DNA of 57,403 nt. It comes from a bacterium. GTDB taxonomy: Bacteria; RBG-13-66-14; B26-G2; WVWN01. Positions 38,745 to 44,872 of the stretch are shown here, piece after piece. How positions within the stretch are numbered: position 1 is the stretch's first letter; each line of letters starts with the position of its first letter. The stretch is taken from assembly GCA_035529855.1 (NCBI GenBank), contig DATKVX010000124.1, positions 1 to 57,403 of the forward strand, given 5' to 3'. The position numbers and the translations under genes are program-made. The notes below the pieces were generated by a model. The model ran no database searches. It saw only the letters and a program-made list of their open reading frames with translations, and had not been told where the DNA came from.

Positions 38745-41273
38745 ATGGCGGTAGGAGCAGGGCGGAAGTCGGCGCGCCTTAGGGCGCGGCTCGAGGCGCG
38801 CGCGCTGTTGAACGAGATGGGCGTACGCGGGTCGCAAGCGGAAAGAATAATAATAGAAACGCTGGACGAACTCGAGGACTTGGGGAACTTCGGCGGCGAA
38901 GTTTTGGAAGGCGTCGTAAAGGCCAAGGTCAAGGACGCGGAGGCGGGGTGGGAACGTAACGTACCGGTGGTCGCGGAGGGCGAGGATTGGGAAGAGCCCG
39001 GCGTAGAGCTCTCCGATAACGCCTTCGAGGTCCTGAAGCGCCGCTACTTGCGCCGCGACGAAGAGGGGAATCCGGTAGAGGAACCCCGCGAGATGTTCTG
39101 GCGGGTGGCGTGGGCGGTCGCGGAAGCGGAGCGGATCTACAACCCCATGGCGGACCTCGAGCCCGTGGCCCGGGAGTTCTTCGGCATTATGGCGCGGCGC
39201 GAGTTCATACCCAATTCGCCCACCCTTATGAACGCCGGCCGCGAGCTGGGTCAACTTTCGGCGTGCTTCGTCCTGGCGGTAGAGGACTCGATGGATTCCA
39301 TCTTCGGGGCCATAAAGGACACCGCGCTCATACATAAGAGCGGCGGCGGCACCGGTTTCTCGTTCTCGCGCCTCCGCCCCAAGAACGACGTCGTCATGTC
39401 CACCAAGGGCATCTCGAGCGGCCCCATCTCCTTTATGCAGGTCTTCGACGCGGCGACCGAGGCCATAAAGCAGGGCGGGACCCGCCGCGGCGCCAATATG
39501 GGAATTCTGCGCGTCGACCATCCCGACATCATGGAGTTCATCACGTGTAAGGCCGACGAACATCACCTCAATAATTTCAATATCTCGGTCGCGCTCACCG
39601 ACGAGTTCATGGCCGCGTTGGCGGAGGAGGAGACGTACGCCCTCGTCAACCCGCGCACCGGCGAGGAAGCCGGCCGGTTGCCGGCGGCCAGGGTTTTCAA
39701 TAAAATCGTCGAGATGGCCCACGGCAACGGCGAACCGGGCATAATCTTTATCGACCGCGTCAACGCCGCCAACCCCACGCCCCACGTCGGCGCGATCGAA
39801 TCCACCAACCCGTGCGGCGAGCAGCCGCTACTGCCGTACGAGTCGTGCAATTTGGGTTCGATCAATTTGGGCTTGATGGTGCGGGAGGAGAAGGGCCGGA
39901 AGGTAATCGACTGGGAGCGGCTCGGCCGCACGGTCCACGCCGCGTTCCGCTTCCTGGACAACGTTATCGACGTCAACCGCTATCCCCTCGCCAAAATAGA
40001 ACAGAATACCAAAGCCAACCGCAAAATAGGGCTGGGCGTCATGGGCTTCGCCGACCTCCTGGTCGAGCTTTGGGTCCCGTACGATTCGGAGGAAGCGGAG
40101 GAAATCGCCCGCCAGGTGATGGAGTTCGTCGACCTCGAGTCCAAGCGGGCGTCGGTCCGGCTGGCGGAGGAACGGGGCGTTTTCCCGAACTTCCGCGGCA
40201 GCGTCTACGACCGCCCGGGCGGCGCGCGCCTGCGCAACGCCACTACCACCACCTTGGCGCCCACCGGCACCATAAGCATCATCGCCGGCGCGACCGGCGG
40301 CATCGAACCTATCTTCGCGCTGTGCTTCTACCGCCGCGTACTGGACGACGACAAGCTGGTGGAGGTCAATCCCCTTTTCGCCAAAGCGGCGGAAGACGCC
40401 GGGGTCGCCGGCGAAGACCTGTTCGAGAGCCTCGCCCGCGGCGAATCCATCCAGAGCCGCGACGACGTCCCGGCCGAGCTCAAGCGCATCTTCGTCACCG
40501 CGCACGACGTACCGCCGGAGTGGCACGTTCGCATCCAGGCGGCCTTCCAGAAGTACACCGACAACGCCGTCTCCAAGACCATCAACTTCCCCAAGTCGGC
40601 TACGCTGGAGGACGTGGAGAAGGCGTACTTGTCGGCCTACGAGCTGGGTTGCAAAGGCGTAACCATCTATCGCGACGGTTCGCGTTCGGTGCAGGTGTTG
40701 AACGTAGGCGAGGCGGCGGCCGACGGCGCGACGGCGCCGGCCGCCGGTCCGCCTCCGCTGGGCGTTGCGCCCAGGCCCCGGCCCGCCATCACCCACGGCA
40801 TTACCGAGAAGGTCGCCACCGGCTGCGGGAACCTGTACGTTACGTTGAATTGGGATGAGAACGGCTTGTGCGAGGTCTTCGCGAAAATGGGGAAGTCGGG
40901 CGGGTGTATTTCGTCCCACTCCGAGGCTTCCTCGCGGCTCATATCGCTGGCCCTTCGCGCCGGCGTAACGGTCAAATCGATAATAAAACAACTTCGCGGG
41001 ATTCGTTGCCCGATGCCGACGTGGCAGAACGGCGAGGCCATACTCAGTTGCCCCGACGCCATAGGCATCGTCGTCGAACGTCATATGGGGGCGAAGACCT
41101 CGCCTCTCTTCGACGCCGGACCCGCCACGGAAGAGATGGAGGCCATGCGGCGGGAGCGGATGTTGAAGGAGCTCGCCAACGCCGGGCCCCAATGCCCGGA
41201 GTGCTCCGGCCTCCTGGAAATCGCCGAGGGGTGTTTAACCTGTCGAGCTTGCGGGTTTACGAGGTGCGGCTAG
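38745..41273 (+). CDS. nrdJ: Adenosylcobalamin-dependent (class II) ribonucleotide reductase
   Basis: Reduces ribonucleotides to deoxyribonucleotides using coenzyme B12. 842 residues. Class II marks: [20 protein letters not shown] with the first redox Cys, [20 protein letters not shown], the active-site loop [20 protein letters not shown], and [20 protein letters not shown]. After a Pro/Ala linker there is a C-terminal TSCPD-type domain ([20 protein letters not shown]) and a final zinc/redox CPECSGLL ... CLTCRACGF segment. ATG start. Regulated by the NrdR operator upstream across a leader of about 130 bases. I see no cobalamin riboswitch box in the leader. Confidence 0.97.
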
Positions 41274-41315
41274 CGGCCAACCGCGGCCGTGCGAGAGGAG
41301 GTGAGCGGACCCGCG

Positions 41316-41390
41316 ATGGTAACTAAGAAGAAAGCACCGACGAAGAAGAAAGCGTCCACGAGAAAGACGTGCGCTAAGAAGAAGAAATAA
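41316..41390 (+). CDS. Lys-rich micro-protein 1 (24 residues)
   Basis: MVTKKKAPTKKKASTRKTCA then KKKK. A strong GAGAGGAGGTGA element lies upstream, and the leader around it is nearly identical to that of micro-protein 3 below. Composition is like bacterial histone-H1-like or DNA-compacting peptides. One cysteine. Coding status rests on the conserved leader and composition. Confidence 0.5.
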   Translation: MVTKKKAPTKKKASTRKTCAKKKK

Positions 41391-41523
41391 TTTCGTAGGA
41401 ACCCGGGCCGCCGGTTGGAACGCTCGTGCCGGCGTGCGGCGGCTCGAAGAGGTAGCGCGGGACTACCGCCCGGGTAGCGGCACGGCTGTACCGGGTTTTC
41501 CCCACGGGAAGGTGGTGAAAAAG

Positions 41524-41694
41524 ATGCCAGTGAAGAGAACAGCAGCGAAGAAGAAGACCGCAAAGAAGACGACTGCGAAAAAGTCGACCGCCAAGAAGAA
41601 GACTTCTACCAGGACGAAAGCTGCCCCTAAGAAGAAGACTGCCGCGAAGAAGAAGGCTACTACTAGGAAGAAGGCTGCTACCAAGAGGAAGTAG
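41524..41694 (+). CDS. Histone-H1-like Lys/Ala/Thr repeat protein (56 residues)
   Basis: A 56-residue, almost purely Lys-Ala-Thr-Ser-Arg protein made of KK-centred repeats (AAKKKTAKKTTAKKSTAKKK and onwards to AATKRK). Such proteins resemble the C-terminal tails of histone H1, chlamydial Hc2 and bacterial HU tails, and bind DNA or RNA nonspecifically. ATG at 41524 with an AAGGTGGTGA element upstream. It lies between two shorter peptides of the same composition. Function in nucleoid compaction is inference. Confidence 0.7.
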   Translation: MPVKRTAAKKKTAKKTTAKKSTAKKKTSTRTKAAPKKKTAAKKKATTRKKAATKRK

Positions 41695-42184
41695 CGTCCG
41701 GCGTTCGGTCGTTGGCGAAGGCTAACGTTTGCTCTTCTTTGTTGGTTATACCTCGGCTCGAGCCGGGGTTACGAGGGGCCGCTATGGCGGCCCTTTCGCT
41801 TTGGAAACCGAGCTCGTTTAACGACGTCGGCTCGACCTAGTATGATTTTACCTAACGTCCGTATTTTAGAGCGGCCAACCTAACCGTCGGTAGCGGCGTA
41901 GCTGACGGGACGGAGGGAGCAGCCCCTCCTTTCGGACGAATACCGGCCGGCGCCTTACGAAAAAATTTGCATTCGTCGGATTTTTCTGCTATATATTCTG
42001 CCGTCGGGATGGTAAGACCAAACCGGCCGGGACGTCTTAGTCGGGTTGCCGTTGACTTCGACCCCTCGCGCCCGCGTGCGGGCGCGTATTGTTATTAGTA
42101 GTGTCGTATTGGTTCTAATATTGCGGGTTTACCTTATGCGGCCGGCCGTCGGGCCGGCGGCACGAGAGGAGGTGACGGCCCGCA
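41695..42184 (+). other. 490-base non-coding stretch with hairpins and a promoter
   Basis: No gene found. It contains a CGGCTCGAGCCG palindrome and a GGGCCGC-TATG-GCGGCCC hairpin (around 41753-41790), a GGAGGG/CCCTCC hairpin near 41915-41932, a promoter at 41967-41995, and a 9-base-pair CGCGCCCGC/GCGGGCGCG hairpin at 42067-42086. A small RNA from about 42002 to 42090, or a structured 5' leader for the 16-residue peptide, would fit. Confidence 0.4.
41967..41995 (+). promoter_or_regulatory. Promoter within the histone-like micro-protein region
   Basis: TTGCAT, 17-base spacer, TATATA; the transcript would start near 42002 and reach the third micro-protein after about 180 bases. Confidence 0.5.
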
Positions 42185-42235
42185 ATGGCAACCAAAAAAA
42201 AGAGCAAGCCTAAGAAGACGACCCCCAAGAAGTAA
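42185..42235 (+). CDS. Lys-rich micro-protein 3 (16 residues)
   Basis: MATKKKSKPKKTTPKK and stop. The leader GAGAGGAGGTGA-CGGCCCGCA before the ATG matches that of micro-protein 1 (GAGAGGAGGTGA-GCGGACCCGCG), and a GC-rich hairpin precedes both. A terminator follows within 20 bases. Translation is plausible but unproven. Confidence 0.45.
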   Translation: MATKKKSKPKKTTPKK

Positions 42236-42253
42236 AATTAACCGACTCGTCAG

Positions 42254-42277
42254 GCCGCCCTTCGGGGCGGCTTTTTT
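42254..42277 (+). terminator. Terminator after the micro-protein cluster
   Basis: GCCGCCC-TTCG-GGGCGGC followed by six T. A textbook intrinsic terminator 18 bases after the 16-residue reading frame, which supports that frame being transcribed. Confidence 0.92.
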
Positions 42278-42375: not shown

Positions 42376-42384
42376 TGATATAAT
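42376..42384 (+). promoter_or_regulatory. Extended -10 promoter for the homocysteine methyltransferase/MTHFR gene
   Basis: TGA-TATAAT with no clear -35; gives a leader of about 88 bases. I see no recognised SAM riboswitch in it. Confidence 0.5.
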
Positions 42385-44356: not shown

Positions 44357-44872
44357 ATGGCCGAAGAAAATAGTTTCGACAGAGACGAAGCGCTGTTCCT
44401 TTCGATAATGTACTCGTTCCACGCCGCGGCGATGCAGCAGATGGGTAAGATAGCGAACCCGTTCACCGGAAAAGTCGAACGCGACCTCGACGCCGCCCGC
44501 GGCACGATAGATGTCCTCGCTATGTTCCGCAAAAAGACCGAGGGCAACTTGACGGACCGCGAACGCCGCGTCCTCACCGGCCTGATTACGGAGCTGCAGC
44601 TGAATTACGTCGACGAGAGCAAGCGCGAACCGGCCGCGGAAGAGAAGGAGGCCGCGCCGGAAGCGGGAGCCGGAGCTGCCGCGAAGCCGACGGCGGAGGC
44701 CGAAGTGAAGGCGGAAAAAGCAGAGGGCGCCGAAGAGGCCGCCGCGGAAGCCGAAGAGAAGCCGGCCGCGACGGCGGAGGCCGAGGCGGCCGACGTCGAA
44801 AAGCCGGCCGAAGAGGAGCCGAAGAAAAAAGAGGCCAAGAAACACGGCGCCTCCAAGAAGAAGGAGGAGTAG
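44357..44872 (+). CDS. DUF1844 protein with Glu/Ala/Lys tail
   Basis: 171 residues. Residues 10-85 are DUF1844 (LFLSIMYSFHAAAMQQMGKI, then LDAARGTIDVLAMFRKKTEG, LTDRERRVLTGLITELQLNY), a small helical domain of unknown function. The remaining half is a charged low-complexity tail of Glu, Ala and Lys ending KKHGASKKKEE. ATG with GGGGAGG nine bases upstream. 30 bases after the methyltransferase fusion and two bases before the next gene. Confidence 0.9.
   Translation: MAEENSFDRDEALFLSIMYSFHAAAMQQMGKIANPFTGKVERDLDAARGTIDVLAMFRKKTEGNLTDRERRVLTGLITELQLNYVDESKREPAAEEKEAAPEAGAGAAAKPTAEAEVKAEKAEGAEEAAAEAEEKPAATAEAEAADVEKPAEEEPKKKEAKKHGASKKKEE

Follow-up and report, generated by a model that had tools for sequence, protein, structure and literature searches.

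The window, that is, the whole stretch of DNA analysed here (57,403 nucleotides, 57 kb), is contig 124 of a 2.62-Mb genome whose phylum is Candidatus Coatesbacteria. The nrdJ gene (38745..41273) encodes a B12-dependent ribonucleotide reductase of 842 aa that matches NCBIfam PRK08665 above the cut-off; it lies on the forward strand, like the three short reading frames, their two structured leaders and the transcription signals of ORF3 described below. A preliminary description of this DNA had claimed that Lys-rich frames of 24, 56 and 16 residues follow nrdJ within 1 kb, and all of them are present: ORF1 (41316..41390; MVTKKKAPTKKKASTRKTCAKKKK), with a net charge of +12; ORF2 (41524..41694), an H1-tail-like, Lys/Ala/Thr-rich frame with a net charge of +26; and ORF3 (42185..42235; MATKKKSKPKKTTPKK), with a net charge of +8. 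When both strands of the whole window were scanned for frames with at least 30% Lys and at least 40% Lys plus Arg, exactly these three, all inside 0.92 kb, were recovered, and no others. Lys-rich frame scans of other G+C-rich loci returned none, save the same genes in sister species. Downstream of ORF3 in the window are located a bifunctional homocysteine S-methyltransferase/methylenetetrahydrofolate reductase (MTHFR) gene and a gene for a DUF1844 protein (44357-44872), the product of which has a long low-complexity Glu/Ala/Lys tail ending in KKKEAKKHGASKKKEE.

Conservation and loss of the frames in the genus

Three genomes of the same genus were compared with the window genome (G000); their NrdJ proteins are 93% (G001), 87% (G003) and 85% (G002) identical to that of the window. 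ORF2 is present in 4/4 genomes, with 56-68 residues, and has been lost in none. ORF1 is found in three of the four, its frame being kept in G001 and G002, while the corresponding site of G003 holds a relic with a degraded Shine-Dalgarno (SD) sequence, no ATG and early stops. ORF3 is restricted to two genomes, G000 and G002. The latter carries all three frames in unchanged order with matching leaders (24 codons for ORF1 and 16 for ORF3), and G001 has ORF1 and ORF2 without the ORF3 block. In G003 (L034), the methyltransferase/MTHFR gene is missing from this location, and the DUF1844 gene directly follows ORF2. The leader pattern was also identified in Candidatus Coatesbacteria bacterium bin961 (CP070633.1), with two matches of the same spacing and the same two peptides; G002 appears to be this genome. 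Given that G000 and G001 are the closest pair while ORF3 is common to the more distant G002, the simplest history suggested by these sequences makes ORF3 an old gene of the genus that disappeared from G001 and probably from G003 as well. As they are absent from some species, ORF1 and ORF3 are dispensable, not essential.

Between G000 and G002, the 16 codons of ORF3 (stop left out of the per-codon table) contain 12 base differences, eight of them at third positions. Seven codons differ silently and two change the residue, an excess of silent over changing codons that leaves 14/16 residues conserved. In a simulation in which 13 of the 51 bases, stop codon included, were free to differ, not one of 20000 random placements reached this number of conserved residues. 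Because 12 bases differ yet only two residues change, the comparison marks ORF3 as a translated gene, as far as sequence can tell. Genes as short as 16 codons are normally missed; that one of this size should be defensible by comparison alone is a new point of this analysis.

ORF1 and ORF2 follow a different pattern. Against G001, ORF1 has 5 silent and 10 changing codons, with no silent excess, and in both frames changing codons outnumber silent ones; their composition is conserved and their sequence is not. Across species, the net charge of ORF1 is +12, +8 and +13, and that of ORF2 is +26, +34, +33 and +32. Under random substitution, retention of frame and charge gave P values of 0.048 (borderline) against G001 and 2.5e-5 against G002 for ORF1, and of 4.5e-4 or less for ORF2; these simulations ignore insertions and shared ancestry, so the P values are rough. 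Disordered polycations would be expected to keep frame, length class and charge in this way. The proposal that the frames are real micro-genes is supported, because they persist in sister species while their flanks diverge; a lack of frame conservation had been named in advance as an argument against it, and the sister species display the opposite, so the idea stands.

Of Candidatus Coatesbacteria, a single genus was found to carry the three microprotein genes. No such genes were detected in ten other Coatesbacteria genomes, and when the surroundings of nrdJ were scanned in some 30 further genomes, other Coatesbacteria among them, no Lys-rich frames came up outside the genus, bar a few of other composition at two loci (L026, L029). 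A protein search with ORF2 in 14 Coatesbacteria genomes matched the genus only, the weak extra matches (e.g., G000:C3 and G010:C112) not being Lys-rich genes. Genome-wide surveys relied on pattern searches. Across the phylum, the other inspected matches to a KKKxxxKKK pattern were set aside, as they fell in the tails of longer proteins, in antisense frames or in small proteins unrelated to these. A short Lys-rich protein with the possible start MAKGRDRG.DQKGGKKKK is encoded away from nrdJ at G000:C13:16604 (L081), G001:C11:18635 (L080) and G002:C1:2235908 (L086), and at G000:C129:27342 (L101) lies the gene of a small protein that contains cysteine and has an H1-like, Lys-rich tail (MPFYQCKGSKTYHSQASCSRVPTN...KKRVTKKKAAVKKKVRRTRRK).

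The duplicated leader and the transcription signals

ORF1 is preceded by a structured leader (41248..41319) with the extended SD sequence GAGAGGAGGTGA at 41293-41304, and a copy of this leader precedes ORF3 (42120..42188); the leader of ORF2 is different and weaker. The preliminary description had noticed a nearly identical region of 30 bases at the first and third frames. The likeness is present, and its size is about 100 bp, from TTGCGGGTTTAC inside the nrdJ coding sequence into the first microprotein codons. The two leaders aligned locally with a score of 64; none of 370 other real segments of the window scored above 38, and none of 1000 shuffles above 31. A search for the leader together with Lys-rich micro-ORFs, which had been recommended, was successful in related genomes of the same genus; elsewhere in the 2.62-Mb genome it was not, GAGAGGAGGTGA occurring at two places only, the ORF1 and ORF3 leaders. 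The genome has four occurrences of the shorter AGGAGGTGA followed by ATG at a short distance, and ORF1 and ORF3 account for two of them. Among 84,980 species genomes, the leader pattern had 11 matches outside Coatesbacteria, none with a similar Lys-rich micro-frame next to it; at one of them (L042) a basic frame of 41 residues begins, but its sequence is different. Since a handful of matches should turn up by chance, we took those outside the phylum to be ordinary strong SD sequences.

In the ORF1 copy, TTGCGGGTTTAC encodes the last residues of NrdJ, C-G-F-T-R-C-G-stop; the ORF3 leader includes the corresponding nrdJ-tail copy in non-coding form. The 5′ half of the ORF1 leader element thus is the end of nrdJ, so the nrdJ C-terminus is likely to be the source, and ORF3 the duplicate of the nrdJ tail, leader and ORF1, with a tail that no longer codes. 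G000 and G002 share ORF3-specific traits, namely, a 2-nt deletion before CCCGC, CGGCCGGC and GCCCGCAATGG; therefore, the duplication predates their split. The earlier idea that a single gene is seen here at different stages of expansion and decay consequently holds for ORF1 and ORF3, considering that the duplicate ORF3 is absent from two species and that ORF1 has decayed in one and has a weakened SD sequence in another; it does not hold for ORF2, with its different leader and no loss. Every base of the last 7 nrdJ codons is identical in the four species, which ties the longest such run in the 842 codons. For the last 8 nrdJ columns, the product of the residue-specific rates is 0.0007, or about 0.003 without the first column, which is not identical in all four. 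These values hint at a constraint on the nrdJ tail beyond the protein.

The leader element, of about 70 nt, consists of an outer helix reaching to the AUG and an inner hairpin, with the extended SD sequence in between. In ORF1, the outer helix pairs 41249-41256 with 41309-41316 and the inner hairpin pairs 41264-41270 with 41286-41292, and the last 24 nt or so of nrdJ provide the 5′ arms. In 5/5 intact copies, TTGCGGGT, or GCGGGT as a minimum, can base-pair with ACCCGCRA or variants thereof, which lie immediately ahead of the start codon and take in its A; TGCGGC can likewise pair with the bases directly preceding the SD. Formed pairs accounted for 93% of the leader pair cells in the true register vs. 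25-49% when slid by 1-3 bases. Covariation in the leader is suggestive, not proven, because the variation is almost all one-sided (U-A/U-G, G-C/G-U), with one two-sided change, and 315/500 column shuffles of the five sequences reach the observed level; part of the 5′ arm is also constrained by nrdJ coding. Folding was exceptional in the ORF3 copies, with z-scores of -6.0 and -3.4, and mild in the ORF1 copies, with -1.6 to -2.3, and in the G000 ORF3 fold most of the SD is also paired. When longer contexts were folded, the outer helix was predicted for G000 ORF3 and competed with other folds in G002 ORF3 and G000 ORF1; gating is uncertain because, in these two contexts, the helix is not always the lowest-energy form. 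A covariance model applied to 14 Coatesbacteria genomes recovered, in addition to the copies already known, the relic in G003 (E=1e-4); apart from two chance-level matches in G011, it located the element nowhere else in them.

As for transcription, a GC-rich hairpin on the forward strand (GGGCCGC-TATG-GCGGCCC; 41777..41806), read from the sequence, followed by a weak T run and kept in G001 and G003, is the probable 3′ end of an nrdJ-ORF1-ORF2 transcript, although the terminator scan did not list it. A probable ORF3 promoter, TTGCAT-17 nt-TATATA (41968..41996; TTGCAC-17 nt-TATACT in G002), was called by eye and by conservation, the consensus scan not having listed it. The clean terminator that had been claimed after the last frame was placed by the terminator scan at 42252-42277, 16 nt after the ORF3 stop codon, and is kept in G002. 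ORF3 now carries a promoter-like site and a terminator of its own, in a unit of roughly 270 nt with a conserved core of leader, ORF3 and terminator; in the comparison with G002, the approximately 115 nt from promoter to leader are poorly conserved. A conserved -10 element, TATAAT near 42377, also seems to belong to the downstream methyltransferase/MTHFR gene alone, with a TTTTTTGTTATAAT-type element matching it in the sister species.

Several further sites were noted in this region. After ORF2, a promoter-like site with a seemingly weakened TATGAT (41818-41846) corresponds to the TTTTTTGTTATAAT promoter-like element found directly before the methyltransferase/MTHFR gene in G001; in the window, ORF3 lies between this site and that gene. 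Upstream of ORF3, a terminator-like hairpin of 8 GC pairs (42067-42086) is followed by TATTGTTATT; as a terminator before ORF3 it was rejected, not being conserved in G002. A possible A_AAA_AAG slippery site at the ORF3 start was dropped because G002 reads AAGAAGAAG there.

Proposed mechanism and alternative explanations

The reading that we narrowly favour is that the locus encodes three polycationic microproteins, with ORF2 as the core nucleic-acid binder associated with nrdJ and with ORF1 and ORF3 as accessories behind the leader fold, ORF3 having arisen by duplication. The frames with their conservation and losses, the duplication and the potential for pairing are seen in the sequences themselves; expression, nucleic-acid binding, coupling and gating are inferred. 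ORF2 would be a disordered, histone-H1-tail-like protein that binds DNA or RNA via its lysines; being encoded directly behind nrdJ, it would probably be made together with the ribonucleotide reductase, at the time of DNA synthesis. The DNA-compacting or RNA-binding role proposed earlier for the peptides is plausible in that it fits their composition alone. ORF1 and ORF3 would be short accessory versions with start sites inside the conserved RNA fold. For ORF1, the last nrdJ codons supply the 5′ side of the fold, so a ribosome finishing nrdJ should open it and let ORF1 start, which would be a case of translational coupling. ORF3 would be an emancipated copy that kept or strengthened the fold after duplication, with its start site shut unless something opens the fold. 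The translation of both is thus perhaps gated by the leader.

A bolder extension, which we consider tentative and on balance unlikely, is that the 16 codons of ORF3 make up a protein gene in its own right, with a promoter, a terminator and an RNA switch to itself, which came into being when the nrdJ end and ORF1 were duplicated. What used to code for the enzyme would now have no other role than to provide one strand of a fold controlling translation, and the Lys-rich peptides may bind this fold and regulate their own synthesis. Similarly improbable, in our opinion, is that the microproteins are real and that their target is polyphosphate or the ribosome instead of DNA. Their composition would fit any polyanion, and AlgP, a histone H1-like protein of Pseudomonas aeruginosa, is reported to affect polyphosphate granule spacing (PMC9239181); the locus gives no pointer to polyphosphate or ribosome genes, however, and the linkage to nrdJ fits DNA metabolism slightly better.

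It is also conceivable, and we regard it as quite unlikely, that the function resides in the RNA, the fold being an end, stability or regulator-binding element of the nrdJ-operon mRNA, ORF3 a small regulatory RNA and the peptides by-products. The identity of the nrdJ tail in all four species, including G003, which has lost ORF1, would be explained in this manner, as would the z-score of -6.0 for the ORF3 leader and the promoter-to-terminator unit on which ORF3 lies. An RNA-only role does not predict the bias of ORF3 towards silent changes, however; the stretch upstream of its leader is poorly conserved, and no Rfam family reached its gathering score in the window, the leader stretch giving only weak matches far below gathering scores. 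An RNA-level function alongside the peptides is possible. We find it very doubtful that ORF3, and ORF1 too perhaps, acts as a leader peptide or attenuator whose translation decides whether transcription stops at the terminator before the methyltransferase/MTHFR gene. A short frame with a strong SD, a structured leader, the close terminator and a biosynthetic gene next in line are what such a system would present; the case is weak, nevertheless, because the downstream gene seems to own a conserved -10 element and is kept in G001 without ORF3. In addition, there is no regulatory codon run fitting Met or folate control, and ORF1 has no such terminator. Least credible of all are functionless chance frames in an A/G-rich spacer. 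Low-complexity codons and the absence of ORF1 and ORF3 from some species would agree with them; the retention of frame and charge, the silent-change bias of ORF3, the unusually strong SD sequences and the clustering do not.

How a microprotein gene and its RNA leader arise and vanish can be traced stepwise here, the origin of ORF3 by duplication, its losses and the decay of its parent all being visible. The locus also suggests that coding sequence, the nrdJ tail, has been reused as a regulatory RNA strand and that a histone-tail-like protein is linked to the enzyme that supplies DNA precursors. Together with the 16-codon gene, a leader that is a duplicated fold containing the nrdJ end is what is new here.

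Relation to known systems

The only family resemblance among the three frames is that of ORF2 to Hc2 (PF07382), with 13.8 bits (E 0.062) against a cut-off of 40 bits; as this score fails the cut-off, ORF2 was not filed as a member. ORF1 had no match to PF07382, and the search took in frames of at least 20 residues and so left out ORF3, with its 16. Hc2 proteins range from 165 to 237 aa and vary by Lys-rich units (PMC2848022). Like chlamydial Hc2 (HctB) and its Bordetella-type relatives, ORF2 is Lys/Ala/Thr-rich and of low complexity, and its size shifts by Lys-rich units: the number of Lys-rich repeats varies among the four species, RKKA(A/T)T-type units follow one another at the end of the G003 protein, and the G001 protein is 12 residues longer than that of G000. 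Unlike Hc2, ORF2 is about one third of the size, scores below threshold, lies behind nrdJ and is accompanied by short accessory partners (ORF1 and ORF3) and a structured leader.

AlgP of Pseudomonas has a Lys-rich, low-complexity, H1-like composition, which the microproteins share, the likeness being one of composition alone; they differ from AlgP in size and locus. Translational coupling and leader-occluded starts are familiar in bacterial operons, e.g., in ribosomal-protein leaders. The ORF1 leader resembles these coupled operons in that the downstream start is located inside a fold overlapping the end of the upstream gene. It differs from them in that a duplication has taken in both the fold and the nrdJ tail, the ORF3 copy working, if at all, without the upstream gene.
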